A DNA stretch of 64,000 nt from NCBI GenBank assembly GCA_964017235.1, contig OZ024934.1, forward strand, positions 81,868,706 through 81,932,705, in the 5' to 3' direction. A model generated the notes under the pieces. The model did no database searches. It worked only from the letters and a program-made list of their open reading frames with translations, and was not told where the DNA came from. Positions within the stretch are counted from its first letter, which is position 1; every line of letters starts with the position of its first letter. This stretch comes from Sabellastarte sp. h YS-2021. Its lineage: Eukaryota; Annelida; Polychaeta; Sabellida; Sabellidae. A program made the translations under genes and the position numbers. This document shows positions 2,792 to 62,800 of this stretch, in pieces.

Positions 2792-4563
2792 AGGTCATAG
2801 GAAGTATTTTCAAATCATTAATTAGTGATTACATATACATATGTAAGTTCAATTTCTGTGAAAATAAGATGCGTCTGGACAAGGTTACATGGTATATTCA
2901 ATCACTTTCTGGCTGTTTTTTCAAGATTTTCACAACTGTCGCCATTATTTTTCACTCGACAACTCCCATAGAAAATACTAGCCTTGACGTCACAGGTTCA
3001 TGACAATGTAAACAAACTATTATTTCCGTAAGCCTTTTAATACATACATATATATTTAAAAGATTGCATAATGTGTTTTTATGAAGTTTATTTGTTTATA
3101 AGACATCAGTCTGCCACAGTAAATTTTTGAAATAGCCTTCAGAACATCTTTTATATTTGTTCTCAGATAAAAAATATTTAGAGAGGTATTAAGCAAGTTG
3201 CATAAAAATCACCAAACAGTGCAGTCAACCAGGTTCAACTCTGAGATGAATTTTGATAGTTATTTTTTTCAATTTTGAAAACACTATTGCCAGGAGATGA
3301 AATAAATACAACATAAATGTCTTTAGAACTGGGCCTCAAGCAAGGATAATCATATATGTTCCCCAAATTAGTTTCCCACCAAAACTGTAAACAATACTGC
3401 TTTCATAGTATACATAATGCGTCTAGCCATCTACAGTGTTGATTACAGTTCCCCTAAACACATATCCTTTTTTTTGGTCTCAACAAAGGCTTAAATTGAG
3501 AATAAAATGTCACCAACTAATTTCCAAAACTTTAAATTATCCAAACTTAAGGCCAAGAAATATTGAACTAATATCTTAAGGAAAACTCATATACTGAATT
3601 ATTTCATAAACTGATAATGTAACAGTTAGAACTTCAAACATGATTCTTTCAGAATAAATTCAATAAATTTGACTACAACAGCATGCTTTTATAATTTATT
3701 GATGCAAATGAAAACAAATTGTGTAGTTTGATTTCACTTTACATCATGCCTTTTCTTGATAGAAATGCTGGTGATTAAAGGCAAAAAAACAGTATCCAGT
3801 AAGTTCAAATGACCACTTTTGAATTTATCAAGAGATTCTTAGTTTTGTGTAAATTTATCTAACTTGAAAGGCTACTTTCCCATCACAGTTTAAAAACCTG
3901 GAAAAAAATGATGGAAGGAGGCAAAATCTCATACATATGTTTATGCTTTCTGCATTCCAAGACAAGCCTACTTACAGTATATCTGTGTTTGTTAGAACTG
4001 TCAGTGGTTAAAAGTTAGGTAAAACTTGAGAAAAAAACAGCATCCAGAAAAAATAGAGGCTAGTGAGCTTTTTTGGCAAAGGAAAATGTTATCTTCCTTC
4101 AGTTTGTAAATATATACACTATATCTCCAACTACACAGAACTTCATTATGAACCTGTGACGTCATCAATCATCTACTACCAGAAAAACAATATGTCCACT
4201 TTTTACTCCATGTTCGGTTCTCGCCTCCAACCTCTGTGGTCGCCGGTTCGAATCTCGGGCCGGGCGCTTCATGTTGGAAAGTTGGTAGTTACTTGCCGAT
4301 GCCCGGTGGTTTACAGTGCACTATGCACTGGTTTACTCCACCTGTAAACTACCCGTCGCAATATGACCCTGGCTGTTGAACGTGACGTAAAGCAACAAAT
4401 GAATAAATTTACTCCACGTTCGTGATATTTATTTTTATAATGCTATTTATGGCTCTTGTACCATATATTTCTTAAAATAAACCACATTTTCATTCTTATA
4501 GGTTGTTTGTCCACTGAATGAAGTTAACTTCATAATTTTTGTGAAAAATGTTTCCTATGACCT
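2792..4563. mobile_element. Kolobok-like non-autonomous DNA transposon (TTAA target) inside the S147 array
   Basis: The left end is TTAA|AGGTCATAGG (TTAA 2788-2791) and the right end is CCTATGACCT|TTAA (4564-4567). This gives a perfect 10-bp terminal inverted repeat and perfect TTAA target duplication. Removing it rejoins the satellite monomer in register. TTAA targets occur in piggyBac and Kolobok; a TIR starting with AGG favours Kolobok. There is no transposase; the interior is AT-rich and carries a SINE at 4217-4407. Confidence 0.8.
4217..4407 (+). mobile_element. SINE-A copy (tRNA-derived, 5'-truncated)
   Basis: Contains a tRNA B box (GGTTCGAATC) and the family body ...TTGGTAGTTACTTGCC... 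and CGCAATATGACC, ending in an A-rich AAATGAATAAA tail. Flanking target duplications of 15 bp (4202-4216 and 4408-4422, 14/15 identical) show retrotransposition. The A box is missing, and it carries an extra internal segment compared with the other copies. Confidence 0.8.
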
Positions 4564-7335
4564 TTAAGTTTGGCTATGCTCGTTTGACCTTAAATGAGAG
4601 GCCCAAGGTCAAATACGACCACACCAGAAGATTCCCAGCACATGATTTCCTATATGCTGGTATACCATCACAAACCTGTAGGACCAATAATAAGCGAGTT
4701 ATAACCACTTTTCAGCTTGGCTATGCTCATTTCACCTTGAATGAGAGGCCCCAGGTCAAATGCGACCACACCAGAAGGTTCCCAGCCCATGATTTCCTAT
4801 ATGCTGGTATACCATCCCAAACCTCTAGGACCAATAATAAGCGAGTTCTAATCACTTTTAAGTTTGGCTATGCTCGTTTCACCTTGAACGTGGGGCCCAA
4901 GCTCAAATCCGACCACACCAGAAGGTTCCCAGCCAATGAATTTCCTACATGTTGGTTTACCATCCCAAAGCTCTAGGACCAATAATAAGCGAGTTATGAG
5001 CATTTTTATGTTTGGCTATCCTCATTGGACCTTCAAGGAGGGGCCCAAGGTCATATCCGACCACACCAAAAGATTCCCAGCCCATGATTTCCTATATGTT
5101 GGTATGCCATCCCAAAGCTCTAGGACCAATAATAAGCGAGTTATAAGCACCTTTAAGTTTGGCTATCCTCGTTTGACCTTGAAGGATGGGCCCAAGGTCA
5201 AATCCAACCACACCAGAAGATTCCCAGCACATGATTTCCTATATGTTGGTATACCATCCCAAACCTCTAGGACCAATAATAAGTGAGTTATATGCACTTT
5301 TCAGTTTGGCTATGCTCATTTGACCTTGAAGGGGGGGCCCAAGGTCAAATGCGACCACACCAGCACATGATTTCCTACATGTTGGTATACCATCCCAAAC
5401 CTCTAGGACTAATAATAAGCGAGTTATAAGCACTTTTCAGTTTGGCTATCCTCGTTTGACCTTGAAGGAGAGGCCCAAGGTCAAATCTGACCACACCAAA
5501 AGATTCCCAGCCCATGATTTCCTATATGTTGGTATACCATCCCAAACCTCTAGGACCAATAATAAGCAAGTTATAAGCACTTTAAACTTTGCCTATCCTC
5601 GTCTGACCTTGAAGGAGGGGCCCAAGGTCAAATCTGACCACACCAGAAGATTCCCTGCACATGATTTCCTATATGTTGGTATACCATCCCAAACCTCTAG
5701 GACCAATAATAAGCCAGTTATAAGCACCTTTAAGTTTGGCTATGCTCGTTTGACCTTGAAGGAGGGGCCCAAGGTCAAATGCAACCACACCAGAAGATTC
5801 CCAGCACATGATTTCCTATATGTTGGTATACCATCCCAAACCTCTAGGACCAATAATAAGCGAGTTATAAGCACTTTTAAGTTTGGCTATGCTCATTTGA
5901 CCTTGAACAAGAGGCCCAAGGTCAAATCCAACCACACCAGAAGATTCCCAGCACATGATTTCCTATATGTTGGTATACCATCCCAAACCTCTAGGACCAA
6001 TAATAAGCGAGTTATAAGCACTTTTCAGTTTGGCTATGCTCATTTAACCTTGAATGAGAGGCCCAAGGTCAAATCCGACCACACCAGAAGATTCCCAGCA
6101 CATGATTTCCTATATGTAGGTATACCATCCCAAACCTCTACGACCAATAATAAGCGAGTTATAAGCAATTTTAAGTTTGGCTATGCTCGTTTGACCTTGA
6201 AGGATGGGCCCAAGGTCAAATCTTACCACACCAGAAGATTCCCAGCACATGATTTCCTATATGTTGGTATGCCATCCCAAACCTCTAGGACCAATAATAA
6301 GCGAGTTATAAGCACTTTAAACTTTGCCTATGCTCGTTTGACCTTGAAGGAGGGGCCCAAGGTCAAATGCAACCACACCAGAAGATTCCCAGCCCATGAT
6401 TTCCTACATGTTGGTATACCATCCCAAACCTCTAGGACCAATAATAAGCGAGCTATAGGCACTTTTAAGTTTGGCTATGCTCATTTGACCTTGAACAAGA
6501 GGCCCAAGGTCAAATCCAACCACACCAGAAGATTCCCAGCACATGATTTCCTATATGTTGGTATACCATCCCAAAGCTCTAGGACCAATAATAAGCGAGT
6601 TATAAGCATGTTTATGTTTGGCTATCCTCGTTTGACCTTGAAGGAGAGGCCCAAGGTCAAATCCTACCACACCAGAAGATTCTCAGCCCATGATTTCCTA
6701 TATGTTGGTATACCATCCCAAACCTCTAGGGCCAATAATAAGCGAGTTATAAGCACTTTTAAGTTTGGCTATGCTCGTTTGACCTTGAAGGGGGGGCCCA
6801 AGGTCAAATGCGACCACACCAGAAGATTTCCAGCACATGATTTCCTATATGTTGGTATACCATCCCAAACCTCTAGGACCAATAATAAGCGAGTTATAAG
6901 CACTTTTAAGTTTGGCTATGCTCGTTTGACCTTGAAGGGGGGGCCCAAGGTCAAATGCGACCACACCAGAAGATTTCCAGCATATGATTTCCTATATGTT
7001 GGTATACCATCCCAAACCTCTAGGACTAATAACAAGCGAGTTATAAGCACTTTTCAGTTTGCCTATCCTCGTTTGACCTTGAAGGAGACGTCCAAGGTCA
7101 AATCTGACCACACCAAAAGATTCCCAGCCCATGGTTTCCTATATGTTGGTATACCATCCCACACCTCTAGGACCAATAATAAGCGAGTAATAAGCACTTT
7201 AAACTTTGCCTATCCTCGCTTGACCTTGAACGAGGGGCCCAAGGTCAAATCTGACCACACCAGAAGATTCCCAGCACATGATTTCCTATATGTTGGTATA
7301 CCATCCCAAACCTCTACGACCAATAATAAGCGAGT
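4564..7335 (+). repeat. S147 tandem array, block 2 (about 19 monomers)
   Basis: Continues block 1 after the Kolobok-like insertion, with the same 147-bp period and high identity. One monomer near 5360 is short by about a dozen bases. A 636-codon open frame at 5456-7366 runs through it only because the period is a multiple of three; substitutions show no codon bias that I can see. Confidence 0.95.
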
Positions 7336-7834
7336 TCAAGGCTTAATCTTAGCAAAATTTTTATGAACTTATAATCAATCGCCCGTCAATCGGTAAATTA
7401 TGGCCCGACTGATCCCAATATCGACTGGTACCTAGATTCTTCCCTCAGGAATGTGCATACCAAATTTGGTTGACCCACACCCAGTACTTTCTGAGGAAAT
7501 CTAGTGAAAAGGAAGTAAATTTTTTTTTGAATTTTTGATAATGTGACCTTGATAAAGGTCAAAGGTCAAATTTATGCCTGTCAAAAAATTTCCCCACGCC
7601 TATAGAAGAACACTGCCACATATCATTTGGATAGGCCTAATAACAAGGGAGATATTCAAGGGAGACGATAATGCGGCAGCGGTGGCGGCGGCTGACTGAA
7701 AACCGGGGGTGAAACCAATAAGCGTCCCCTTTTCAAGGGATGCTTAATTATGATATGTAAGGTACATGTAGACAGGTCATATGCCATTTTTTGGACACTG
7801 GCTTTGCGTAGAAACTTTATTATAGCCTCTTCAA

Positions 7835-10160: not shown

Positions 10161-10286
10161 TGGCAAAGAATATACGCATTATAATAGTAACATTTAGTTA
10201 ATTAAAACTACACATACACGTATTTCATTCCGTAGCTGGCATGAGAACGTGTTATTAAATGTATTTTGTAAAAGCTGGCATCGTTA

Positions 10287-10511
10287 GAGTAAGAAATCTA
10301 AAATTCGCCACATATCTGAAATTCGCTACATGTAACAATACTAATAAAATAAATGAATTGTGGTGAGATTTGTTGAATGTATAGTAAATTAAGGCTTTTT
10401 GAACAGAAAAATACCAATTGTGAGACAAAAAGATCATTTTCTTCATAAAATTAACTAAGGTTTTAGAGGTGGCGAATTTTAGATTCCTGGCGAATTTTAG
10501 ATTTCTTACTC
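10287..10511 (-). mobile_element. MITE-T copy 1 (TA-flanked, 225 bp)
   Basis: Ends are GAGTAAGAAATCTAAAATTC and its complement, with TA on each side. A CTAAAATTCGCCA-type motif is doubled inside one end. Three more copies lie at 16436, 45187 and 61213 in the opposite orientation. The TA target suggests the Tc1/mariner class, but this is an inference. Confidence 0.88.
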
Positions 10512-10951
10512 TATGTTTTCTGCAGGTTTGTTTAAGGAGTAAGGCCACTTCTACCAAATCTGGATGTGTGATACATGTGTTCCACTGTCACGAGGTTACC
10601 TCCTTACCATCTGGATTATGTGGCATGTGGTTTTGTCAGTTGTGGGACCTATCTCTTCATTTATGACGATTGGGAGGGTGAGGGTACATGTCAAACCTAT
10701 TTATCAAAGCTGTTTGAAATGCTTTATAATTGATCATCCTTTCTTGTCAACCATAACTGTATAATGACTTTTCTTTGGGGTTATACAACCTATACCTTTT
10801 TCGGATGCGACACTTAATTTGTTAAATTATTTCTTGTTACAACTAACCTGTTAACATGGAATCAAGTGAAATGTTATCCAATAAGAAGATACATGTACAT
10901 TTAAGAGTCTCCCAATTAATTTCCCTGCTTTCACAAATTGATCCTTACTAG
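10512..10951. other. no recognisable feature
   Basis: Intergenic; short open frames only. The same applies to 11149-11673. Confidence 0.5.
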
Positions 10952-11683: not shown

Positions 11684-13770
11684 GGATCATAAAAAACCCC
11701 ACCATAAAAAACACCACTATAAAAACCCCACCCTTAAAATTGACAGGGGCTTAAAAAAACCCACTTTTTATAATTTAATGTCAGCTTCTTTAGAATTACT
11801 TTTTCTTCCGGACAAGCGATTATGTCTCATTTCACATTGTTTTGCATAAAATAAAAAAGTAATCTTTTGAAAATTTATTTTGTTATAACTGTGGAGTTTT
11901 CAAATTTAACCATGGTTTGAAAAATCATTATAACTTGGATGATGTTATTAAAAAAGGTAAATATTTTTGTTGCATTAATTGAAATTAAAAAACTCAATTT
12001 AAAACTTAGATTTAAATCTAAGATTTTACTGAGAAGCCACATACACTGTCCCTGTACCCAGACTCAGTTGTTGTCTTTGTAATCCACTATTTCCAGTTAT
12101 TCTATTGAAGGATTAAACAAAGCATTATGACTGTTTGTTCTTCACAAGAAGCCACATACATTGGTCATATACCAAGACTCAATTGTTTATCTTCACTTAG
12201 TAATCCACTATTTCCAGTTATTCTGTTGAAGGATTAAACATGGAAGGGCTTCCCATTGACCAGCACATGCAACATAAGGTTTGTCTGTTTAATTATATTC
12301 ACCATTGAATCACCTGTGAAATAATACTAACAAACAATATACAATATACATGTACTTACTTTCTCTGATGAAATCCAAACAATCCATCAATGTATTATAT
12401 TGTCTCCTAAAATGATCAATTCTGTCAGAGTAGGGTTTTTTATGTCCCGAGAAATTTTGAATGAAAATCTTGATTACAAAGTTTGTGCCCAAGAACTTGC
12501 AGATGCTGGCGGCCATGCACTAGGTAGCTTAATATCAAAATTCAAACCATATAAAGGTATTGGTTATAGTACATTTACAAAATTGTATGAACAGGGAGTA
12601 ATACCAATAACCGATTACTGTAGCAGTGTTTGGGGGTTTTCAAACCGATCATTCGCAGAAAAGATTCAAAACAGGGCCTGTCGATATTTTCTGGGAGTTC
12701 ATTCAAAAACCCCATTGCATGTACTTCAAGGTGATGTAGGCTGGTTGAAACCAAAATATAGGATTTATTTGAATATACTTAAATACTACAATAGACTTAT
12801 TAAAATGGATCATGACAGACTAACTTATCGTATATTTGAACATGACCTTCAGAATATAACAAATGATAGCTGGTGTGGAGAACTAGAGAAAATTCTTGAT
12901 CAGATAGGCATGCTGGGAAATCTAATCGATGGTACTGAAATTGATATTGATGTAGCAAGAGAGAAATTATTTACACTTTATGACCTAGAATGGCAGGATT
13001 CTATTAGCACTAAACCAAAACTGAGAACGTATGTGAAATTCAAGTGTCACATCTCCACTGAAAATTATGTTTCACAAAATATTAATAAATATGAAATATC
13101 GCTTTTGGCTAAACTAAGGTCTGGCACATTGCCACTGGCAGTAGAAACAGGAAGATTCAAATGCAAACAATTATGTAAAAGGTTGTGTGATTATGTAATA
13201 GTAATGAAATTTAAGACGAAGAGCACTATATTGTTACTTGTCCATTTTATAAGACCCAAAGAATATCTTTTTTAATTATATATCTCATGTAATGTTTCTG
13301 AGAATTTTGATAATTTAAATCCTGAAGACCAGTATATAAAACTGATGACTTTAAACAACAAAAATTTAAGGGTTTTTGTTAAATATATAACCTCAATTTG
13401 GGATTGTAGAAAATCCACATTATTTAAAATCTAAAGTAGAGTGGTTTCACTAAAACTACACCTAGGAGCGTTTTTGTTTTTGTGTATATTTCTAATCTTT
13501 CTTCATATTGCTATGCACATACGTATACTGTTAGAAGATTTCATACTGACCTGTAAGCCTAAATGGCTGGGTGTTATTATATTCTGTTTCAGTAAAACTG
13601 TTGTATAAACTTTCTGTTTATATATATGTAACTCTGGATAACACACCATCAGTAAAATAAAAATATTATCTATCTATCTATCTTGAGGGTGGTTTTTTTT
13701 ATGGATTTTCCAAAATCAGTGGAGGTTTTCAATGGTGGTGTTTTCTATGGTGGTTTTTTTTATGTAAATC
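11684..13770. mobile_element. Mutator-like (MULE-type) non-autonomous element with perfect 10-bp target duplication
   Basis: Left end GGATCATAAAAAACCCC... and right end ...GGTTTTTTTTATGTAAATC are inverted versions of a long imperfect repeat built of CATAAAAAACCCCACC-type units. GTTAGAGGGG occurs exactly on both sides (11674-11683, 13771-13780). A long degenerate TIR with 9-10-bp duplication fits MULEs. The interior holds a ~90-bp direct duplication (12032 and 12148) and a LINE fragment, but no transposase. Confidence 0.75.
12400..13690 (+). mobile_element. 5'-truncated LINE fragment (C-terminal part of reverse-transcriptase ORF)
   Basis: A 291-codon frame (12400-13275) contains the post-RT region of a non-LTR retrotransposon: LISKFKPYKGIGYSTFTKLY, ITDYCSSVWGF, IQNRACRYFLGVHS, LLAKLRSGTLPLAVETGRF. 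Around 13199 the frame shifts away from the usual Cys/His-rich tail, where the alternative frame has DEEHYIVTCPFY. The 3' end is AATAAAAATA(TTATC)n near 13670-13685. The catalytic YADD portion is absent. The jockey/CR1-like superfamily is likely; the exact clade is unclear. It is dead. Confidence 0.8.
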
Positions 13771-13780
13771 GTTAGAGGGG

Positions 13781-15060
13781 TCAGTTTTAACAGAGTCTCT
13801 TGTTTATATTTGTTCTCTTTTGTCTGGCATGTCTCATTGGGAGATAACAAGATAATCTGGACCGTTCACAAAACACTTTCACACCTAACCACCTACCTTT
13901 CATAAACAAAAATATATTTTTTGGACCTATGTGTTAATCTATTCTTGTTTACGTGGTCAGTGATCTAATTATTTTGGTCTGAATTCATCAAGGGCAAACA
14001 AACCAACATTATTAATGGAGGGATTACATTATTTTCTTGGAACACTACTTCTATTGATGTCTTAGATACATAATTTTATGTACCCACTGGCTTTAAGTTG
14101 CCCAACTTACATTAATGTACCACTGAATGAGGACTAGTGTTTTGAAAGCTTTCTAGCTGGGCAGATTTCCAAGCCTTTTCCCCTAAACATCCTCTTATTG
14201 GTTATTGTGGGTACAAAAAATATATGGCTTTATACAATATGTTATAGGTAATACAAGGATATCCTAGTTTTACTTAGGCAGTGAAACATGCAGTTACTGT
14301 ATACACATAACTTATTACATTCATTCAATATCTGCGCCAACTTCTGTTTAGTTTTCAGATTGGTTAAAATAAACATGGAGAAGAATAGTACAACAACTGA
14401 GCTTATTCTAGCAGAAAAAATTAAAATTATTCATTTATGGGAAGCCTTATGGAAAAACAGATTATGCCTAATATCATGGACAATACGCACATCTACAGTG
14501 TAAAATTGATGTAGTTGTTAATTTAATATGGCATGAGCTCTAACTCAAATCAATTGACTCGCAGATGTAGTCAAATAGGATTTCCTTCTGCACAAGCCAT
14601 ATTGATCGGGAATCCAATCTTTCAATATATTAGCATATGATTACGCAGGCGTGGTAATACACTCTATGATCAAAACAATCAACAATAGCACGTGAAAACA
14701 TCTGGTAAAATGAATAGATACTTTTAATTTCAATACAGTTAAATCCAGGAAAATTCCTATAAATATATGGCTGATATGGATATATGGCCAGCAGCATCTT
14801 AACTGCTCATGTGTGTTGGCAGACAACAAAATTTATCATTTTGCCAGTTTTGGTTCTTTAATTTACAAGTTAAATGAAGCTTCATGCCAATTGATGATGC
14901 AATATCAATATCCTCCTTTTAAAGCTATATAATTTGGATGAAAAGCAAAGTTTTATTGAAGCATCCTAAGTTATAAAATGACACTATAGTGTGTAAAAAC
15001 AAATTGGCAACTGTTTGAAGTGTAGTGTCATTTGTCAAATCAATTAAGCTGATTTTTTTT
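13781..15060. other. ChaC upstream region
   Basis: AT-rich intergenic DNA. It must contain the ChaC promoter and any upstream exon, but I recognise no TATA box, Inr or repeat with confidence. Short frames here are not convincing. Confidence 0.5.
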
Positions 15061-15094
15061 TCTCAGAAGCTATAAAACACTAATCTCCATCAAA

Positions 15095-15316
15095 ATGGTT
15101 GATAATAAACAGTCTTTTCTGTCCATTTTTGAGGGTGAATCTATTGAGATTATACCCCAGGACTACATTGAAAATCAGACAGTTTGGGTGTTCGGTTATG
15201 GGTCCATCTTGTGGAAGAATGGATTTACATATCGTGCCAAGAAATCTGGATATATCCAAGGGTTTGTCCGGAGATTCTGGCAGGGAAATACAACACACCG
15301 GGGCACTACAAATAAG
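15095..15316 (+). CDS. CHAC1-like: ChaC coding exon 1
   Basis: This exon encodes residues 1-74, including the glycine-rich WVFGYGS loop and the RFWQG/HRG motifs. The donor is AAG|gtaagt, a near-ideal consensus. The open frame continues past the donor to 15436, but the extra residues have no family similarity and the splice to PGRV restores the expected sequence. Confidence 0.92.
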
Positions 15317-18300
15317 GTAAGTACTTTTAAAACAGTGATGTGGTGGAGAAGGCTAATATTATGGAATTACTCCACGAACTGTTTAATAAATGTACCTTGT
15401 GTATGGGTTGTGCACATTTTACAAGCCACTCTGTAAAGTGATACAACCCCCACTCATCACTCCTGCCTGAAGAGCTAATTAAGCTCATAAGAAGGCATGA
15501 CAGGTTTTTTTTTTCAAACAGTTTTAAAAATTTGATCTATGTTGAAATGGCCATCTTTGCTGTGGAGAATCTGTCCCAATCAAATATAAATCCAAATTTA
15601 TTAAAATGGATACTACTTAAAGACAAAGAGTGTCGAGCCAGAAATCAGCCTGGAGGAGTTAAATCTTTTCAGCACATAAATAGCTTGTGAGGAACAATAT
15701 GGAACAAGGCCACATGTAAGATGCACTGTGACCCTGTCCTGATGTGATCTAAATTCTGGAAAAGAGTGTAAAACCACCCTTTGAACTTAATACAAGATAT
15801 AGAGCTTAACACTACAGTTGAAGTATATGTGTGAAGCTGTTATTTATAAAAGAAATCAGATAGTTATCTGGTTTGGCTAGCTCTGGTTTGATAGGGTTGA
15901 TGATTGGTGTGTAGTTATATTGTAATCATAACCTAGTGCATGACAAATTTTCACTCATGAGATGACCTACTGGGTTAGATTCCAAGATCTCTGAGAACTG
16001 AAAGCTACATGATTGTAATTTGGACACACCCCTATATCAACATATTGCATCAGTTGGTACTTGCAAAAGGGACATATTTTAATTAACTATCAAGAGTGTA
16101 TTTTTTATCTTTCAGAGCAGTGCAAAGAAAGCAATTGTCTTTTGATGTATCCTGTTGGAAAGTTATTTGGTCAAAAAGTAAAACTCAAACCAGCTAATAT
16201 ATTTCAGTTTGACAACCTCTCACACACAGCTGTTTTACTTTTATTTTTCAGCCTGGAAGAGTGGCCACAATAATACCACAAGATAATGTAAGTAATTTGT
16301 AATGTATTCTTCTTTGTAATAACTGACCATTGTGATCAATATCTGAGCTATGAATACAAAATTACCAGTCGATTGGTATATACATATGTATACAATGTAC
16401 TGAGTAGTGGCAGATGCACTCTGTATTATTGACTAGAGTAAGGAATCTAAAATTCGCCAGGAATCTAAAATTTGCCACCTCTAAAACCTTAGTTAATTTT
16501 ATGAAGAAAATGATGTTTTGTCTTAAAATTGGTATTTTTCAGTTCACAAAGCCTTACTTTACTGTACATTCAACAAATCTCACCTCAATTCATTTATTTT
16601 ATTAGTATTTCCACATGTGGCGAATTTCAGATATGGGGCGAATTTTAGATTTCTTACTCTATTGACCAGGGCTTTGAAATAAATCAGCAGTAGTAGATTC
16701 CTCGAGTTCAGTTCATGCTCTGTCAATCAATGTCACTCAGTGTGTATATTCAGGTCACCGAAAAACTGTAAATAAAATAGTATGTCACCTAAATTCATTT
16801 TTTTTTGGTAAAACATACAGTCAAAATATTTTGAGTATTGGATATTAATTATTAAGTGAAAGTTTCTGTTACAGTTTAATGTCTTAAAATGCTAATTTAG
16901 TATCATTTAAGCCATCATAGACATTTTAACAAACAAACAAAAAATAAAAACAAAGTGGACCTTAATCTGTGCCCTCTTGCTTGTGTACCACAGGGTTATT
17001 ACTATGCCATTAACAAAGATAAGATGAATTTTACCAAACTGCAGATTTGTGGGTCATTGTCCACCAATCACTATTGATAGAGGGAAAATGAATATATTTG
17101 TCCTCTATTGTTTAAGGATATTAACTTGTCAGCTCTTTCAGAATCGCTTTTGGCCACGAGTTATAAAACATCAACCAGGGGCCGATTTCACTAAAGGACT
17201 TAAACTAAGTCCCTTTATTGGCTAAGTCAGGGACTCAAATCTAAGACTTTGGTCTTAGCTAGGTCTGGGATTTAAAATGGATTTCACAAAGGTGACTTTA
17301 CTAAGTCCATGGTTATCAAATAACCACAGTGGTTTTCTGTGTCTTGTGACCTTTTATATATAATCAAATGATAATATTGGTGCCATAATACGGAAGCTCT
17401 GAACTGCCAAAGTTTTTTTATTTTACTAACTTGAATATACGAGTTAGTTAACTTGAATATTCAAGTTAATAACTGGAATATTCGAGTTACTAACTTGAAA
17501 ATACCAGTTAGCTAACTTGAATATACGAGTTAGCTAACTGGAATATACGAGTTACTAACTGGAATATACAAGTTAGTAACTGGAATATACAAGTTACTAA
17601 CTTGTAAATACCAATTAACTAACTTGAATATGCGAGTTAGCTAACTTGAATATGCGAGTTAACTAACTGGAATATACGAGTTAGCTAACTGGAATATACG
17701 AGTTAACTAACTGGAATATATGAGTTACTAACTGGAATATACCAGTTAGTAACTGGAATATACGAGTTACTAACTTGAATATACAAGTTAACTAACTTGA
17801 ATATACGAGTTAGCTAACTTGAATATACCAGTTAACTAATTGGAATATACGAGTTAGCTAACTGGAATATATGAGTTAACTAACTCGAATATACGAGTTA
17901 GCTAACTGGAATGTATGAGTTAATAACTGGAATATATGAGTTAGTAACTTGAATATTCAAATTAGTTAACTGAAATATACCAGTTAATAACTGGAATATA
18001 CGAGTTAGCTAACTGGAATATATGAGTTAACTAACTCGAATATACGAGTTAGCTAACTGGAATGTATGAGTTAATAACTGGAATATATGAGTTAGTAACT
18101 TGAATATTCAAATTAGTTAACTGAAATATACCAGTTAATAACTGGAATATACGAGTTAGCTAACTGGAATATATGAGTTAGTAACTTGAATATTCAAATT
18201 AGTTAACTGAAATATACCAGTTAATAACTGGAATATACGAGTTAGCTAACTGGAATATATGAGTTAACTAACTCGAATATACGAGTTAGCTAACTGGAAT

Positions 18301-21300
18301 GTATGAGTTAATAACTGGAATATATGAGTTAGTAACTTGAATATTCAAATTAGTTAACTGAAATATACCAGTTAATAACTGGAATATACGAGTTAGCTAA
18401 CTGGAATATACAAGTTAATAACTGGAATATATGAGTTAGTAACTGGAATATTCCAGTTAGGTAACTGGAAAATACCAGTTAGTTAACTTGAATATACAAG
18501 TTAGCTAACTCATATATTCCAGTTAACTAAAAGGTATATTCCAGTTACTAAGTCATATATTCCAGTTATTAACTTGTATATTCCAGTTAACTAACTGGTA
18601 TATTCAAGTTAGCTAACTGGTATATTCGAGTTAGCTAACACATATATTCAAGTTAGCTAACTGGTTTATTCCAGTTACTAAGTCATATACTCCAGTTATT
18701 AACTTGTATATTCCAGTTAGCTAACTCGTATATTCCAGTTATTAAATGGTATATTCCAGTTAGCTAACTGGTATATTCAAGTTAGCTAACTGGTATATTC
18801 CAGTTAACTAACTGGTATATTCAAGTTAGCTAACTGGTATATTCAAGTTAACTAACACATATATTCAAGTTAGCTAACTGGTTTATTCCAGTTAACTAAC
18901 TGGTATATTCAAGTTAGCTAACTGGTATATTCAAGTTAACTAACACATATATTCAAGTTAGCTAACTGGTTTATTCCAGTTACTAAGTCGTATATTCCAG
19001 TTATTAACTGGTATATTCCACTTAGCTAACTGGTATATTCAAGTTAGCTAACTGGTATATTCCAGTTAACTAACTTGAATATTCAAGTTACTAACTCATA
19101 TATTCCAGTTAGCTAACTCATATATTCGAGTTAGTTAACTCGTATATTCCAGTTAGCTAACTCGTATATTCCAGCTAGTTAACTGGTATATTCAAGTTAG
19201 CTAACTTATATATTCAAGTTAGTTAACTTGTATATTCAAGTTAGTAACTGGTATATTCCAGTTACTAACTGGTATATTCCAGTTAGTAACTGGTATATTC
19301 CAGTTAGTAACTCATATATTCCAGTTAGTTAACTCGTATATTCCAGTTAGCTAACTCGCATATTCAAGTTAGTTAACTGGAATTTTCAAGTTAGTAACTT
19401 GTATATTCCAGTTACTAACTTGTATATTCCAGTTAGTAACTCATATATTCCAGTTAGCTAACTCGTACATTCAAGTTAGCTAACTCGTATATACAAGTTA
19501 GTTAACTGGTATATTCAAGTTAGGTAACTGGCATTTTCAAGTTAGTAACTTGTACATTCAAGTTACTAACTCGAATATTCCAGTTATTAACTTGAATATT
19601 CAAGTTAACTAACTTGTATATTCAAGTTAGTAAAATAAAAAAACTTTGGCAGTTCAGAGCTTCCGTACCATATATCCTTCATTTGTTGTATTTTATTTAA
19701 GGATAAGGAGTGGAGAAAAGTTTATAGCGGCCATATTTAAGTCCTCTTTACAAAATTTAAGCCCACTACCTCCCAGACTTAAAGTTAAGACCACTGACTT
19801 AGCAATTTCATGGATTTAGCTGCTTTGCAAAATCCGCTAAGTCTAAGACCACAGACTTAACATTCTTTTGACAAAATTTAAGACCAAAGTCTTAAATTTA
19901 AGTATAAATCTGGACTTAAGTCCCTTTGTGAAATCAGCCCCTGGATTAGTCTTTTTCTCTTATTTTTTCTCTCTTTGTTGTACTTAACCATGCCAATGGT
20001 ATGTTTTTGTAACAGGATTGGAATAATTTATCAAAAAATTGTTTGATGTAAATCATCATCCACAAAAGCAAGAAAGAAAAGAAAAACAGATTTTCACTTC
20101 AGATTTAAACTGGGCATTAGTTCCATATTTTTTGGACTAAATATAATAAGATGAACTTATGTTGTTTATTCTTATGAATTTCTAATTGTGTTCTATACTC
20201 CCAGGCCCAGATGACACAACATGCTTTAAAATGAACGAGCCTGGAAATTTATGTGCCAGTGTCAAAAACAATAATAATAAAAATAATTATAAAAACTTTT
20301 ACAGTTCAAGTACTCTGTAATAACAATTTAGTCTAAATAGATTTTGCATTCATCATTATGCAAAATAAACAACAGATATATTCAAAACACTGCATGGACA
20401 GAAACAAATGAGCCAAATATTCACTAGTACAAACCAGCTGAATTGATATTACCACAGTATCAAGAGCTGTGTAAACCTTGGCCCAATTTTCCATGTGTTC
20501 AGTGTTGCCATTTTATAAAGAGCATTGTAGAGTCTGTCAAGGACACACAGTGTTGCATCATATTCTGGTGAAATGTTTTGATTCGTGCCAGTGCTCACTC
20601 ATGTTAAACGTCAATATGGGCAATCCCTAAGAAAACTAAGGGGGTATTGAAATACGAGTCAATATCCTGGAGAGTTAAGTTTGATGGTACTTTAAATATC
20701 ATTGCAGTGTTGTATGGCTATTCGTTTATTTGCGTTTTAGAGCTAAGTTGTGAAAGACAACTAGTAAACACAATATCAGCAAACTAAATGTGCACTAAAA
20801 TTTGGGGTGGATTTTACAATGGTTGGAATCCACTCTGTTGGTGGATTTTAAAACAGGTTTCTGATAGTTTTCAAGCAATGTTATTATTGGGCCTCGAAAG
20901 CTTTCAAAATGTATCCTGAAAAGTTGCAGTTGTTTCCTGATTCATGGGACTAGTGCATGAAAATGATCAGTTCCCAATTTCTCCTGAATGGATTACGAAC
21001 CTAATGAAAGCCTATGGTCACTTGGATAGACTTAAGATAGAAAAGATTGTTAAAGATGCTAAGATGAGTTTAAGATAGGTTTGTAATGGGATTCCTAAAT
21101 GCAAGATCTGATACGAGTTGGCGACAGTTTACGATAATTTCAAGCAGTTTGAATTGACTAGAGGTTTACACAATTCAATCCCAAATTTATTTATTAATGC
21201 TCCAAAATGCAACCTATCCCAAACTGTTGGTTTAAGTTGATCCTGAACATTTTGATCATGGTTTAAGAACATGTTGACTGAGATCAACCTCAAAAGAAAA

Positions 21301-21891
21301 AAGACGTTTATTCAAAATGTATTTGATACTTCGTTTAAGCAAGCTGTCAGGCATGTTGTCTCTATGCATTTTCAGGGCAAAGTGTGGGGAGAAGCATACC
21401 AGCTTGTTGGTGAAAACATGGTTAGGGAAGCCATGAAACATCTGTACAATCGTGAGTGTCAGCTGGGTGGCTACATCATGCAGCAGGCGACATTTCATCA
21501 GAGTGAATGTATCTGTGATCCTGTGACAGTCCTGCTGTTTCGCGCAACATCCGAAAGTCAGTATTACCTCGGACCTGCACCAGAGTTGCAACTCGCTACA
21601 CAGATCATCAACAGCCAAGGTCCAAGTGGACATAATGTGGAGTATGTGCTGTTATTATCGATGTATCTCAGAAGACATATGCCCCATGCAATGGATGAAC
21701 ACCTCAGTGAACTGGAGGTACACCTTTTGAATATGCTTGGTGCCAAGGGCATCAAACTGGAGGATTATGTCAGAGTCTCATACTTGCCCGATTCAGTATT
21801 ATATGACAATTGCCAAAAGTGTTCAGTCAAATCAAAACAAAGCATTTGTGATAAAGTAAAAACCAGGGAAAGACGTTTCAGTACAGGCTAA
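15095..21891 (+). CDS. CHAC1-like: ChaC-type gamma-glutamylcyclotransferase (glutathione-specific), 3 coding exons
   Basis: The product should cleave glutathione in the cytosol to 5-oxoproline and Cys-Gly, as known for ChaC enzymes. Coding exons are 15095-15316, 16252-16287 and 21376-21891; all introns are GT-AG and phase 0, giving 257 aa. Visible family signatures in order are WVFGYGS (res. 31-37, glycine-rich substrate loop), RRFWQG (59-64) with HRG (68-70), PGRV (75-78), VWGEAY (89-94), NRE then GGY (111-119, with the probable catalytic Glu at 113), YLGPAP (150-155) and GPSGHN (168-173). The spacing around the catalytic Glu resembles ChaC1 more than ChaC2. The ~35-residue tail after position 220 is basic and not typical of the family. 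The start is the first ATG before the conserved core; a polypyrimidine tract ending in CAG at about 15065 suggests a spliced 5' UTR. No frameshift or stop is seen. Very likely functional; the exact paralogue is less certain. Confidence 0.93.
15317..16251 (+). other. ChaC intron 1
   Basis: A GT-AG intron of 935 bp. I see no repeat family or coding segment in it. Confidence 0.85.
16252..16287 (+). CDS. CHAC1-like: ChaC coding exon 2 (36-bp microexon)
   Basis: This is a 12-codon exon encoding PGRVATIIPQDN. The acceptor is a T-rich tract ending in cag, and the donor is AAT|gtaagt. It supplies exactly the PGRV segment expected between HRG and VWG in ChaC proteins. Both flanking introns are phase 0, so skipping it would keep the frame but delete a conserved loop. 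Confidence 0.9.
16436..16659 (+). mobile_element. MITE-T copy 2 in ChaC intron 2
   Basis: Same ends and subterminal doubled motif as the copy at 10287. The flanks show TA and a longer 7-bp direct match (TATTGAC on both sides if the left end is taken as TAGAG). Confidence 0.88.
17175..19944. mobile_element. TIR element (CCAGGGGC...TTTCACAAAGG ends) hosting the foldback element
   Basis: Left end CCAGGGGCCGATTTCACTAA, right end the complement of CCAGGGGCTGATTTCACAAA. Inside both arms are repeated TAAGTCC/GACTTA segments. Similar ends bound 22829-24798. The two host arms without the insert sum to about 490 bp. No clear target duplication. Confidence 0.7.
17389..19667. mobile_element. giant foldback (FB/TU-like) element with arms of inverted ~20-bp tandem repeats
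   Basis: The first 52 bases (17389-17440) are the exact reverse complement of the last 52 (19616-19667), beginning TACGGAAGCTCTGAACTGCC. Between them lie about 100 tandem ~19-20-bp units. From 17430 to about 18510 the units read AACTGGAATATACGAGTTAG; from about 18510 to 19630 the core is reversed (GTATATTC). The switch lies near the midpoint (18528). Within the left arm a ~150-bp higher-order unit is repeated about three times (about 17847-18380). The design matches foldback elements known from Drosophila FB and sea urchin TU. There is no coding sequence. A direct CCATA lies on both sides, one base out of register on the left, so the target duplication is doubtful. Confidence 0.88.
21376..21891 (+). 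CDS. CHAC1-like: ChaC coding exon 3 (terminal)
   Basis: The acceptor is ttttcag|GGC. The exon encodes residues 87-257 with the catalytic-Glu motif NRE...GGY, YLGPAP and GPSGHN, and ends at TAA (21889-21891). An open frame extends upstream of the acceptor but carries no family similarity, and the long open frame on the opposite strand is a shadow. Confidence 0.92.
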   Translation, partial: GKVWGEAYQLVGENMVREAMKHLYNRECQLGGYIMQQATFHQSECICDPVTVLLFRATSESQYYLGPAPELQLATQIINSQGPSGHNVEYVLLLSMYLRRHMPHAMDEHLSELEVHLLNMLGAKGIKLEDYVRVSYLPDSVLYDNCQKCSVKSKQSICDKVKTRERRFSTG

Positions 21892-22904: not shown

Positions 22905-24587
22905 TCGCATCGGAGAACCGATGCAAATTGTATCCACCAGAAGAAAACTCACCAAAGCCATTGTAACATCGCTTAACCTTGAAGGAGAAGCCCAAGGTGA
23001 AATCTGACCATATCAAAAAATTCTTAGCCCATGATTTCCTATAGGTTGGTGTGACACTGCAAACCTCTAGGAATATGAATAAGCAAGATATAAACACTAA
23101 TTTTGGCAATCCTCATTTGACCTTGAAAGAAGGGCCAAAGGTCTAATCCGATCACACCAAAAGATTCCCAGCCCATGATTTCCTAGATTTTGGTTTACCA
23201 TTCCAAAGCTCTAGGACCAATAATAAGCGAGTTATAAGCACTTTTAAGTTTGGCTATCCTCGTTTGACCTTGATGGAGGGTCCAAGGTCAAATCCGACCA
23301 CAGCAATAGATCCCCAGCACATGATTTTGTGTACTATCCTCGTTTGACCTTGAAGGAGGGGTCCAAGGTCAAATCTGACCACAGCAAAAGATTCCCAGCC
23401 CATGATTTCCTATATGTTGGTTTACCATCCTAAACCTCTAGGACCAATAATAAGCGAGTTATAAGCACTTTTAAGTTTGGCTATCCTCGTTTGACCTTGA
23501 AGGAGGGGTCCAAGGTCAAATCCGACCACACCAAAAGACTCCCAGCCCATGATTTCCTATAGGTTGGTTTACCATCCCAAACCTCTAGGACCAATAATAA
23601 GCGAATTATAAGCACTTTTAAGTTTGGCTATCCCCGTTTGACCTTGAAGGAGGGGTCCAAGGTCAAATCCGACCACACCAAAAGATTCCCGGCCCATGAT
23701 TTCCTACAGGTTGGTTTACCATCCCAAACCTCTACGACCAATAATAAGCGAGTTATAAGCACTTTTTAGTTTGGCTATGCTCGTTTGACCTTGAAGGAGG
23801 GGTCCAAGGTCAAATCCAACCACACCAAAAGATTCCCAGCCCATGATTTCCTATAGGTTGGTTTACCATCCCAAACCTCTAGGACCAATAATAAGCGAGT
23901 TATAAACACTTTTAAGTTTGGCTATGCTCATTTGACCTTGAAGGAGGGGTCCAAGGTCAAATCTGACCACACCAAAAGATTCCCAGCCCATGATTTCCTA
24001 TAGGTTGGTTTACCATCCCAAACCTCTAGGACCAATAATAAGCGAGTTATAAACACTTTTAAGTTTGGCTATGCTCATTTGACCTTGAAGGAGGGGTCCA
24101 AGGTCAAATCTGACCACACCAAAAGATTCCCAGCACATGATTTCCTATAGGTTGGTTTACCATCCCAAACCTCTAGGACCAATAATAAGGGAGATATAAG
24201 CACTTTTCATGACTGCAAAGAAATGCCTGTGGCGGCCATCTTGTTTTTCAAAATGAGGCCAAAAATATTCCCAGTCAAAATTTTGTAATGAGGAACATAT
24301 CCTGCGAATTTGAGATCTCTACCTATAATACCCTTTGCTCTAGAGGGCCACCAAAAGTCCTTGTCGAAAAACACCCGTGGCGGCCATCTTGTTTTTCAAA
24401 ATGAGGCCAAAAATATTGCCAGGCAAGATTTTATGGCTATGAATATATCCTGCAATTTTGAGAAGGCTAGCTAGAATATTTTTTTCGTTAGAGCGGTAAT
24501 GGTGAAATCTCTCTACACACTGCGGCGGCGGCGGCATAACGAAGTCAAATCCATAATATCCACCGGATGCTATCCGGTGGATACAGT
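22905..24587. mobile_element. H2 element copy 1: hairpin-ended, S147-bearing
   Basis: The left end has a hairpin GCATCGG...CCGATGC then TGTATCCACC; the right end is a near-perfect hairpin TATCCACCGGA-TGCTA-TCCGGTGGATACA (24557-24585). Before it lie two copies of a GTGGCGGCCATCTTG segment and a CGG repeat. Related ends occur at 38178-38311 and 57262-58130. No coding sequence. Confidence 0.75.
22970..24215 (+). repeat. S147 tandem array in H2 copy 1 (about 8-9 monomers)
   Basis: Same monomer as at 1.3-7.3 kb but with its own shared variants: GGGGTCC instead of GGGGCCC, and CCTATAGGTTGGTTTACC instead of CCTATATGTTGGTATACC. The latter puts a TAG stop in the frame that is open in the H1 array. 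One monomer near 23310 is shortened. Confidence 0.93.
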
Positions 24588-43300: not shown

Positions 43301-46300
43301 AAATAAGTCACTTAATTACATTACATTGCCTCATATTAGTGAGATTATTGTTGTTTCACTAAAATTTATACCAGATAATTGAAAAATACACCAAATAGTC
43401 ATACAGTCAAAAAGTAACAGCATATCAGTCAAATATTTCCATTCTTTCTAAATTAAAGTTGATATGCTTATGAAACAAAGTTTTATGCTTGTGCAAAGTA
43501 TATGTATGATAATAATATGTATTAATATGTATTATCAGTCATAATATATTTAAATGATAATAATTGTTAACACATTTTTAAGGTTATTTATGTGAAGGAT
43601 TATGAAAAACTTACCTATGTTATAAGCTAAAATTTACTTTTAAAGTGTAAATACTTAATGTGCATTATGTATGATAATAATATGTATTAATATGTATTAT
43701 TATTCATAATATATTTAAATGATAATAATTGTTAAATTTAAGATCAATTTCAATATCAAGACCAATTATGACAGGTATCACATTAAATGTTGACTAAAAC
43801 TATTATTATTACAAGCAAAAGTATATCAGTTTCTAAATTTATACTTTAAAAGTCAATTTTAGCTTATAACATAGTTAAGTTTTTCATAATTCTTCACATA
43901 AATAACCTTAAAAATGCATTTCCAATATTTCACAAATTTACTGAATGCTCATCAGTAAAGCTGTGTAAAATATTAGCAGAGATTTCAGGAATTTCGCGAA
44001 ATTACTGAAAATTTTAGTTATTTCGCGAAATTACTGACCAAATCAGGAATTTTGTGAAATACCTAAAGCATTCAGTAATTTCACGAAATTACTGGTTACA
44101 CAACTTTACTGTAACATATACAAGCTAAGAGAGAAATCCCTGCAATTGTCATTGAGAAAATTGTGACAAAGTGTTGACATTTTCACACCTTGGGTGAGGG
44201 TACCTCTTTTCTAATGGCTCTTGAGAACAGACGAACAGAAAGATCTGCATGCCTTGAACAATTTATCATCCTCGACAGATAAGGTATTTTTTTAAAGTAA
44301 CATCTCTCTGGGCCTTGTACTTTTGGAGAAGAAATTGTTCATGTGGATGCGGCACAGTGATGTCATGATGTCATCTCAGCTGAGGTAAAATGTGACAAAG
44401 AAGAAATTGAAATTTTCAGAATGCAATTAATGTCTTGGTATGCCTTCTTTTGTATAAACTGGTGGCATTAATCATTCAAGAATCGCCTAGATTTGTTTAG
44501 GAATACTTTTTTTAAGTTCAGTACTTTGCAAAATTCCAAAGTGAGCTTTCTCTCCTCTGGTTGTGCAAACACTTTCTGGTGCCAAGTTTTTACAGCCCAT
44601 GAATTTACAATATTTCCTCTATCCATTCTGTTTTGTGGCACCTTAGAAATTGATATGTGTCAATATTTAGCACTTTAACAGTTTCTAAAAATAATAACTA
44701 CAACATTGCTTCTGAAGCAAGAGAAAAAGACCCTGCCAACCAAAAAATTTGTCAAAATCACTCTATCTGGCACTGTTTCTGAGATATTAAAGATTTTTCA
44801 TTTCAATGCTAAAAAAATTGGGGCGTTTACTAAATGATTAAATAGTCGGCTATTTTGTACTGGATCACTTCCAAAAGTTAATGATTTCCAGATATCTATA
44901 TAACAAACCTACTTGTCAAATTTCTTGTGAAGTACCTTTTAAGTTATCATCTGGACAAGCACACCCCTTTGGAAAACATGTTTTTGGTTATGTGACTTCT
45001 CTTATTTATCAAAGTGTCATGACATCATACTCAGCCCTTCCCCGTGAATTTCTCACAAAGGTCCCTAGTGAGATGCTTAATAACTTCAAGAAGTTCCTGA
45101 AATCTCTGATAATATTTTATCCTATTTTACTTATTGGAATAAAGTAAAATTATGGTATGTTACTGAATGCATTTTCTTTATAATTAGAGTAAAAAATCTA
45201 AAATTCGCCAGGAATCTAAAATTCGCCACCTCTAAAACCTTAGTTAATTTTATGAAGAAAATGATGTTTTTGTCTCACAATTGGTATTTTTCAGTTCAAA
45301 AAGCCTTAATTTGCTATACATTCAACAAATCTCACCACAATTCATTTATTTTATTAGTATTGTCACATGTGGCAAATTTCAGATATGTGGTGAATTTTAG
45401 ATTTCTTACTCTACATGATAAACTAGAAGAATGTTTTTGCTGACAAAAACGAAGCGGCCCTGATGAAAAAGAAGTCACCCATAAAAGATGTCAACATATG
45501 CATCATAAGCAATAGAAACTATGAACTTTATTGCATTGTGTATGTGACTTGTCCCTATTTTCATCTTTAATGAGTGCGCACAATTAAAGTGAGGTCAGCT
45601 GAACAATACAATAGCTGGAGATTAAAAACTCCATAATTTCACTGCAAGATTAGGGCTGTTAAAGAGTACTCGAGTACTCGTTAAAGATTAGATTACTAAA
45701 TTATTTGGAGTACAAAATGAACAAAAGAGTACTCTTTTACACTCAAATAGTGACCTTTTATAAACCATTCTTGATAAAAGTGACATAAACTGGGTAAATT
45801 TCTTTTAATTTTCATGGCAAAATGGCACATTTTGTTGTATTTATCGCTAAAAGAGTACTCGTTTTAGAGTAGAGTAATGGTGAGAGAGTACTCGAGTACA
45901 AAATTTGCTACTCGTGGCAGCCCTATGCAAGATGGCCATAACTTCATTCATATGGGGACTTTAAGGTGACCATAAAATAAGAATGTCCCTTTTCTTATCC
46001 TTTATAAGTGCATAAAGTTTAGCTCAGGTCAGTTGAACAATAAGAAAGCTGGAGGCTGCAACTTCCTTTTTCACTGTAAGGTGACCATAACTTCATTCAT
46101 ATTGCGACTTTAAGGTGACCATAATATGAGAATGTCCCTTCAATATCAATATATGTTAGATATGGAAAAAGAAAGGAGCCAGATGGCTTTATTCAAATCT
46201 TATGACTTTAGGGGGGGCCAAAATTATATTAACAGTTTATGGTCACCTTAAAGTCAGGATAACCCTTTGGTTTGCCATCCTTTATAGGTGTGCAAAGTTT

Positions 46301-59800: not shown

Positions 59801-62800
59801 CAGTAACAGGTGTACCCCATTCAAAGGTAGCGTCAACTACATTTACATTATTTCCTTCTTTTTACACATACATACTCTACTTTTATGTTGCAAAATTTTA
59901 AAGAACTTAATAAATAATTCTGCATCCCATGAAGTTCAGATGACTTAACTTAATCTTAAAGCCTAACATAACATTATTTGAAAACATAAAACATGCCATT
60001 ATAATACACATAATAACTGAAACAAACAAAAATTTAAAAATATAAAATATATATATACTAAATATATATATTTAATTTTATGTGAAATACTTTTTATCCT
60101 ATATGTCTCATACTTTTTGTCAGAACACTCTTTGTCTAGCTGCAATACTTTTAGTCCAAATCCTTTTTGTCTTAGACTACAAAGTTGTGAAGATAGACAC
60201 CTTATTATTGTTAGTGCCAAGACACTATTTAAATCTATTATATTATAACAAAGAATGCAGGGGATATTGTGATAATGTAAAAAATCTTCATCTTTACACA
60301 GCTGCAATCTGCTATATCTGATCTCAAAGGACTACAAAATCACATCTATTACACCATGAACTCCAGATAACTACACACTTCAATGGAAAAAGGCCTTCTG
60401 ACAACCCGATATTTACTTATTCATGTATATCAAAAGGAATTCTCTTTATCAAGGTTCAACTTAAGGAGATGGGACTTTTCTATGTCTTTATAAACTTTCC
60501 AATCAGTATGTGGGTTTACCTCCATGAAGAATACATTTTTAGCCCTTGCCAAAGCTATGACTTCTTGACACTGGGCAGAATTTATCACCAGCGGCTTTTC
60601 ACAAAGCACATTGTACCCAGCTCCCAGGAACAGCTTACACAGTGGGAAGTGCATTGTGTGAATACTTCCAATGTAGATGACATCTGAGAAGTGACAATAA
60701 ATGACATCAGATTTTAAACAGACATTAACCATCTTTGAGATGGTTTTATTGTACCAGTATACACAAAATAACTAATTTACATTATGACACCAGGCAAGAA
60801 GGGAAAAATAATAAATAAATGTAAAGCTTAAGCAACTACTATGACATGAAGCTGAATATAGCTGGCGAGTAACTGCTATCATTAGCCTTTGACTTGTTGG
60901 TTAACTGTTTCCAATGTACAGTATCTTTCATGAAATAATGAAAACGTCAGATATGCAAGCAATGCAAATATAAACATTACAAATACGGTGGATCTCAGGG
61001 GTGAGAAAAACAACAAAATTCAGGCAAATTGTTGGTTAATTTGGAAATAAATGTCATATTTTATGCTTGTAACATAACATACAGAAAATAGCATCGCAGA
61101 TGCCTGTATCCATAGCCCAGGGAAATAGTTTTCAACACCAAGAGATACAGGAGAACTGGAACAGTTCAAAGATCAGGAGACTCTTGTGGCATGTGACCCC
61201 TGTTTATATGTAGAGTAAGAAATCTAAAATTCGCCAGGAATCTAAAATTCGCCACCTCTAAAACCTTAGTTAATTTTATGAGGAAAATGATGTTTTTGTC
61301 TAAAAATTGGTATTTTTCAGTTCAAAAATCCTTAATTTACTATACAGTCAACAAATCTCACCACAATTCATTTATTTTATTAGTATTTTCACCTGTGGCG
61401 AATTTCAGATATGTGGCAAATTTTAGATTTCTTACTCTATATGTTTTCAATTCACTCTTTCAGATGACATATTTTATATAAAATCTAAATCATCATGTTC
61501 TCTGTTCTGTTAGGTTGTAAAATTGTGAAATGGCCAGGAACATATATTGTAGTTTACCATTTTATCAGCCCATTAAGGAAGTAGTAAATATGACTTTTAA
61601 TGGCAAGTTTTACAATTTTATATGTACATCTGATAAAAATAACAGAATGCCAGTTGTTGAGTGTTGAAAGATGTTTTAATATTTGTTCAAAACATGAATT
61701 CTTGTTCTATGTTAATGCCAAAATACACATAATTAACCAAAAATATGAGTTAGGCTGAATATACAAGGATTAACAATACATACAACTGATACAACATGCA
61801 AATCACCTAAGTCTTTATCCTTTGCCAGCTCTTCATATGATCCATAGCTTCTTTTTATACCAAATCGCTTGGCAAATTCACGAGCTTTTCTCAGATCTCG
61901 TGCTGCAACTGCTTTCACCTATCAAAGAAAATAGTCCAAAACCATACAAATAAAATCTGTTTTTTTTAACAAAATATATCTCCCCTAAGAAGAAGTAATT
62001 TCTGTTTTATTTTTTACAGCTAGTTATATTGTTTAAGAACAAGTACGGTAGATATTCTGATCTTTTTAGTTACAACTCAGGTCCAAGACTAAAAAGTATG
62101 AAAATGACTGAATGTTGAGAAAGACTCAATAACCTTTGATGTTTTATCAGTCTTTCATGAATTGTGGAGCAGTGTGAGGAGCGTACATCTCATCACTGAA
62201 GGCAAGCCGCAGTGGGCTACGTTAGTACTTGGATGGGTGACTGTCTGAGTTCTACACCAGTTATGGGATGTGTCTGAGTTGGAATTTCTTTTTGTCGCCA
62301 GACTTTCACAAATTCTAGTGCACTACTTGTGCCTATGATGGCTGTACAGCTCAAGCATGTAGACTGAAGGACTTTTCGGCCTTATTTCCTTTAATACCTC
62401 TTTTGTGTGGTTAAAATACCATCACTGTCAGGTTAGTGGCATCTTATTTGTTCTGCAAGCACTGATAAATGTGATGCAAAGTTGAACTGGATAAACAAAG
62501 TATTATTGATTTTTTTTTGGCGTCGGTATACCTTCTAATTATGGCATCATCTAGTTGTACTCCCAACACTTAACACTGCAAAAGGTATATGACGAACTGA
62601 CAAAAGAAAATTTTTTTAAACACTACTGATTAAAGTTTTATATATTTTAAATATCTGAATATACATGCAATGTAATTAATAAAATCTAATTATTCTCTAT
62701 TACAATAACATAGAATCAATACTTCTCTTAGCTGTGCAGTATTATTGTTATGAAAGAATATTTTTATATTTATTGTAAAAAAAACTATTTAATGATATCA

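Follow-up and report, generated by a model that had tools for sequence, protein, structure and literature searches.

The second intron of a ChaC gene in the sabellid annelid Sabellastarte sp. h YS-2021 contains a long foldback structure, and the question raised by this locus is whether the structure serves the gene, as a hairpin in its pre-mRNA, or is a mobile element that happens to reside there. The window analyzed is a stretch of 64,000 nucleotides (assembly GCA_964017235.1, contig OZ024934.1, positions 81,868,706 to 81,932,705 of the forward strand), and coordinates given without a locus label are positions within it. The foldback occupies 17389-19667 (2,279 bp), exactly the borders given in an initial annotation that was made from the letters of the window. 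Our analysis makes it probable that the element is an IS3EU-type foldback transposon, non-autonomous and mobilized in trans, whose palindromic units would act as binding sites and whose hairpin would be a passive feature of the transcript.

Anatomy of the foldback and of its copies

The element starts with TACGG and ends with CCGTA. Its terminal inverted repeats (TIRs) are perfect over 52 bp, in agreement with the initial annotation, and a further 27 bp match past a single mismatch. The portions of the TIRs outside the array lie at 17389-17426 (forward strand, TACGGAAGCTCTGAACTGCC...) and at 19630-19667 (reverse strand). They are flanked by a 6-bp target-site duplication (TSD), CCATAA at 17383-17388 and CCATAT at 19668-19673, in which 5 of the 6 letters agree. 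Inside lies an uninterrupted array of 102 units, each 20 bp long. Neighboring units are spaced at 22 bp in 62 cases and at 21 bp in 39, and together the units make up 90% of the element. The left arm (17427-18503, forward strand) is composed of 50 contiguous units with the consensus TAACTGGAATATACGAGTTA and the right arm (18506-19629, reverse strand) of 52 contiguous units in the opposite sense, with the consensus TAACTGGTATATTCCAGTTA. The orientation switches head to head at a GC dinucleotide (18504-18505) with no loop or spacer, so that the two opposed arrays of a ~20-bp unit that had been described as meeting near the midpoint are indeed there. The mean self-complementarity per unit is 79%, which makes each unit a palindrome by itself. 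The unit pattern TAASTNRNATATNYNASTTA, with one mismatch allowed, has 100 matches in the window, where 0.05 would be expected, and all of them fall within the element.

The symmetry between the arms is well established at the ends and slight at best toward the interior. The left arm and the reversed right arm are 88.8% identical, and right arms with shuffled units still reached 87.1 +/- 0.9% (maximum 89.7% in 20 shuffles). Mirror order thus exceeds that of the unit-shuffled arms by about 1.8 standard deviations, and the idea that one arm was copied from the other as a mirror image, barely supported past the ends, was dropped. Within the left arm, blocks are repeated at distances of 7 and 11 units.

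Ends unique in the genome would, by its own terms, have refuted the initial annotation, and this refutation did not come about: a search of the 1.786-Gb host assembly with the 23-bp end, allowing up to 3 mismatches, returned 449 forward and 428 reverse matches, and none for the reversed-pattern control. The window element appears to belong to a young transposon family with several hundred members. From 100 places among the matches listed, 33 pairs and 7 single ends were fetched as 40 regions. Four single ends (L042, L043, L047 and L048) were dropped as no partner end was present within the 7 kb fetched, leaving 36 copies besides that of the window. These copies are 967-4,059 bp long (median 2,638). 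Outside TACGG...CCGTA they have 6-bp duplications, which are identical in 31 copies, differ by one letter in 2 and by four or five letters in 3. A TA target duplication as in Tc1/mariner, initially read from the window copy alone, was dropped since the other copies duplicate 6 bp outside the TA. The perfect stretch of the TIR has a median of 84 bp and a maximum of 224 bp, and is shorter than 30 bp in a few copies.

When the 36 delimited copies were pooled with the window copy, the regularity of the array proved general: of the 2,924 unit spacings in the 37 copies, 2,860 measure 21 or 22 bp. Only 24 of 2,961 units break the two-arm orientation plan (16 of them in a single compound copy, L024), and the gap at the arm junction is 2 nt in 33 copies. 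The junction of the window copy, together with both flanking units, is exactly common to 19 of the 37 copies (counted from the listing, in either orientation), which points to a single founder. The unit numbers of left and right arms are uncorrelated (rho -0.11, p 0.52), and blocks are repeated at lags of 7-8 units over all copies. The median among the 74 ends equals the consensus over the whole terminal 101 bp; for the two ends of the window copy the identity is 98% and 99%.

A gap measuring 625-1,336 bp splits the array in 25 of the 37 copies. Of the gaps larger than 500 bp, 26 out of 28 match the spacer of copy L021, with best pieces that are mostly 94-99% identical; those in L019 and L020 that do not match are other inserts. 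The spacer has no counterpart in the window copy and in ten other copies. It was considered as the loop of the hairpin and rejected, given that 6 units or more separate the longest gap from the orientation switch in 24 of the 25 copies with a gap larger than 500 bp; in L041 the longest gap does sit at the switch, and the longest gap in L020 is another insert. A 237-bp stretch of the spacer is 73% like window positions 7532-7764. The window also contains arrays of a 147-bp tandem repeat at 1311-2791, 4563-7336 and 23334-24207 (about 10, 19 and 6 copies, with 90-96% matches), and stretches of the latter two weakly resemble the spacer.

Superfamily, partner transposase and the role of the units

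The superfamily was assigned on the basis of the ends. According to the parts of the literature at hand, the termini of complete IS3EU families are TA..TA and their TSDs usually measure 6 bp (PMC10045372), and in a fungal IS3EU set the TIRs exceed 30 bp and end in TAYGG..CCRTA (PMC12730594). The window element and its copies resemble IS3EU (taken with GingerRoot) in the 6-bp TSD, in the TACGG..CCGTA ends and in a TIR of more than 30 bp. They differ in that the foldback copies examined contain no transposase, and arms of 20-bp palindromes are absent from the published IS3EU descriptions consulted. Judged by its ends, the family would thus belong to IS3EU. In the scenario that we favor, an IS3EU transposase encoded elsewhere would recognize the TACGG...CCGTA ends and mobilize the foldback, which would be joined to its new site by means of a 6-bp staggered cut. 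The family would descend from one founder in which two arms were joined head to head without a loop, and arm length would have changed later as whole blocks of units were gained or lost.

Related ends were found in the genome as well. The same end pattern without the T-run occurs at 14 + 28 places and a GG-variant of the end at 142 + 145 places, with no match for the control in either case. At 12 of these 42 variant-TIR places without the T-run, a stretch of 373 bp was examined for palindromes recurring at 20-22 bp, in comparison with 300 first-order shuffles. The observed periodicity was equalled in none of the shuffles at six of the 12 sites and in one at a seventh; for an arm of the window element the value was 0/300 and for two control pieces of the window 28/300 and 143/300. 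Several of the seven array-bearing sites have a nearly identical unit and may be plain family members with an altered end, and the unit at L095 is visibly different. The arrays therefore appear to recur at ends of the foldback type, though not universally. One further element with ends of a related kind (TATGG) was delimited at L098:23-5048 (5,026 bp, TSD CATCAC/CATCAT with 5 of 6 letters equal); a single match to its left 36 bp is present in the genome.

The likeliest use of the palindromic units would be to offer a dimeric DNA-binding protein, probably the transposase, additional sites to bind. The 21/22-bp spacing corresponds to two turns of B-DNA. The argument builds on the strict phase, on the recurrence at related ends and on the precedent of Galileo, the transposase domain of which is described as binding sites within the tandem repeats of the TIRs (PMC3688188). 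A second precedent is provided by the VANDAL anti-silencing proteins, reported to bind noncoding tandem repeats (PMC10398659). The variation among units is concentrated mostly at positions 6 and 15 (TAACTKGAATATACVAGTTA), which are mirror positions of the unit. We considered this concentration as a sign of selection on the unit and rejected it: in a neutral duplication-mutation simulation, 22 of the 85 runs with similar overall variation equalled or exceeded it. The mirror placement arose in 9 of 237 neutral runs, about the chance value of 1 in 19, and offers a weak hint at best.

Like the outcome of that simulation, several other findings weigh against the reading of the element that we favor. 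As to the age and uniformity of the family, the sample of 36 copies favors young ones, given that an exact match to the 23-mer at each end was the basis on which 33 were selected, and similarity of the window copy to the consensus drops to 85% over its left 240 bp. As to the partner, which in autonomous IS3EU members is a DDD/E transposase of the IS3/IS481-like group, no transposase gene with the foldback ends (TACGGAAGCTC) was found. A genome search with the IS481 profile NF033577 gave 5,540 first-look candidates, of which 66 were scored and 20 loci were fetched with 1.5-kb flanks; the foldback ends were absent from these 20 loci, although ends beyond the flanks would escape. The best four of the 66 hits (L064-L067) belong to one family, which we take to be Ginger1-like, and the remaining fetched loci contain frames of up to 1,457 amino acids. 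As to the arrays, 5 of the 12 variant-TIR sites lack a significant one, and so do the related ends beside L012 (35/300) and L033 (195/300). Finally, the L098 element has a palindrome array at its right end only, contains no open reading frame (ORF) of more than 106 amino acids and gave no Pfam match for its four ORFs of more than 80 amino acids. Together with the free variation in arm length, this element counts against a binding-site role of the units.

In a rival reading the arrays have no function at all; they would be a by-product of replication slippage and unequal exchange in palindromic sequence, tolerated since movement would need only the last ~35 bp. We consider this a serious contender, to which we give slightly less than even weight. 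Arm lengths are free and independent (within single copies the two arms count 27 vs 16, 46 vs 4 and 22 vs 67 units), most arrays tolerate the large gap described above, the two-position concentration is obtained under neutrality, and the array of L098 is confined to one end. The strict phase, on the other hand, suggests upkeep, as do the arrays at seven of the 12 variant-TIR sites, with the differing unit of L095, some of which may nevertheless be members of the same family. A more elaborate proposal, which we find rather doubtful, is that the arms form a helically phased lattice of dozens of palindromic sites on which an IS3EU transposase, an anti-silencing protein or a host factor assembles cooperatively. 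Selection acting on the lattice, and not on the formation of a hairpin, would then hold the phase while length drifts, a satellite-like multisite synaptic end would have evolved, and the double-stranded RNA (dsRNA) hairpins in the introns of recipient genes would be a side effect.

As a separate observation, the Ginger1-like family (L084:2009 to L085:2770, C20) encodes in one ORF an rve domain and an OTU protease domain, both over the cut-off, and an F-box-like domain below it. It has 205-bp TIRs of short repeats that are 97% alike and, judged by eye, the TSD CCAG, and its copies are 98-99% identical. A 4-bp TSD is also given for Ginger1 in the available text of the source (PMC10045372). Elsewhere in the assembly, C647 (15,345 bp), with its genes recognized by eye, appears to be a mitochondrial genome that has genes on both strands.

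The ChaC intron and the predicted hairpin

Two findings confirmed the location in ChaC intron 2 as initially annotated: the exons on either side match PF04752, and each of the two introns has GT/AG borders. The coding part of exon 1 lies at 15095-15316 (forward strand, as are the other exons; MVDNK...HRGTTNK, followed by GTAAGT, with an inferred start codon), within the ORF 15053-15433 that matches profile positions 1-45 (E 1.7e-16). The 36-bp exon 2 (16252-16287, PGRVATIIPQDN, flanked by CAG and GTAAGT) bridges profile positions 45 to 57. Exon 3 (21376-21888) begins after CAG and falls in the ORF 21259-21888, which matches positions 57-172 (E 1.2e-24); 21888 is the end of the ORF and the true exon end may differ. 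Intron 2 thus spans 16288-21375, and the foldback accounts for about 45% of it. Upstream of the gene, an open frame of 314 codons (12331-13275) had no Pfam match at E 0.01.

From the arrangement of the repeats, the foldback is inserted into an older inverted-repeat element (17175-19944), which has imperfect TIRs (CCAGGGGCYGATTTCAC...) and would be ~490 bp long without the foldback. Its ends, of the GGGGCYGATTTCAC type, lie at 17175 and 19944. They recur as a pair in L044 (2650-3240, second end at 3223, ~590 bp apart) and as single ends in L007 and L094, with no match for the reversed-pattern control in the 362 kb of fetched loci. Given this nesting, ChaC intron 2 would have been hit more than once. 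The same intron also houses one of four copies of a short inverted-repeat element of ~229 bp with ends like TAGAGTAAGAAATCTAAAATTCGCC (16434-16662); the others, at 10285-10513, 45185-45413 and 61211-61440, are ~93% identical to it.

The initial annotation had predicted a dsRNA hairpin of ~1.1 kb in every pre-mRNA. Folding of the 2,279-nt transcript indeed yields one long hairpin, with a minimum free energy of -1478 kcal/mol (-1462 for the antisense strand), compared with -797 under a maximum pairing distance of 60 nt, -432 to -465 (about -447) for five mononucleotide shuffles and -548 to -613 for three window pieces of equal length. Of the 1,037 predicted pairs, 857 span more than 300 nt. The predicted duplex is branched and bulged, and its longest perfect helix is 101 bp; the minimum-energy structure is thus one long hairpin that branches locally. 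In the preferred reading, the folding of the ChaC intron into this long imperfect hairpin would be a passive consequence of the insertion. Since A-to-I editing in metazoans mainly targets dsRNA from young repeats, at least in the part of the survey available (PMC9989829), editing of the intron hairpin is plausible, and any consequence that involves ADAR, Dicer or splicing may plausibly be a by-product.

The same fold energies and the same preference of the editing machinery can be read as signs that the hairpin is a selected regulator of ChaC, an intronic dsRNA that serves as a substrate of ADAR or Dicer or acts as a drag on splicing. This we regard as highly improbable. The suggestion that the hairpin is a special feature of a stress gene found no support, as the family to which it belongs has several hundred insertions, and because hundreds of copies exist the effect on ChaC is probably incidental. 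Moreover, no mark of conservation was seen on the window copy, as judged within one species, and its single TSD mismatch and near-consensus termini fit a fairly recent insertion. Slightly less weight still is given to the idea that errors of assembly account for part of the symmetry and that the true array length or the inverted half differs. Short-period arrays are hard to assemble, and the left arm of the window copy does hold repeated 7- and 11-unit blocks. Against this, the two-arm plan recurs at 36 other places, 33 of which have TSDs that are identical or one letter off, and the copies share a common junction type at very different arm lengths.

Comparison with known foldback systems

Foldback transposons have mostly been assigned to Mutator and in a few cases to other superfamilies, as stated in the consulted part of PMC4079207. 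The family described here displays the features of the class: its inverted repeats are long and hold short tandem subrepeats in varying number, and its many copies are dispersed and have TSDs. The TSDs of 6 bp found for the ChaC-intron foldback differ from the 8-10 bp of the Mutator/Foldback and Tetris type (PMC4079207, PMC3169594) and from the TA duplication of Tc1/mariner, considering that the TA is here part of the TIR. Mcmar of Meloidogyne chitwoodi, which is Tc1/mariner-like, differs moreover in having TIRs that are described as far shorter than the foldback arms.

Three other systems are comparable in architecture. The Mutator/Foldback element Tm1 of root-knot nematodes has TIRs built of a variable number of 13-15 bp tandem repeats, with unequal ends; it has mostly 9-bp TSDs and a MULE-like transposase, and in the available text its repeats are not termed palindromes (PMC3169594). 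Tetris of Drosophila virilis is, like the present family, a non-autonomous foldback with tandem repeats in its TIRs for which a partner was not found, but its repeats are ~220 bp long, its TSDs 8-10 bp, and it is described with a middle domain and three complete copies (PMC4079207). Galileo, a foldback-like member of the P superfamily, shares the long and internally repetitive TIRs in which the repeats hold transposase-binding sites. It belongs to another superfamily, has a known transposase and contains few long repeats, with the binding site reported in 2 of 4 (PMC3688188). In the literature as far as it was accessible, no description of a foldback with an IS3EU signature was found, and in the one paper that contains both terms they are unrelated, standing in table rows and in the title of a reference. 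Two uses follow from the structure of the family: the regular 21/22-bp palindrome lattice makes the purpose of foldback arms testable by a binding assay, and the copies of differing arm length offer a natural series for relating the length of intronic dsRNA to editing and splicing, if enough of them reside in genes. To the foldback transposons known from the superfamilies above, the element in the ChaC intron adds one with the signature of IS3EU.

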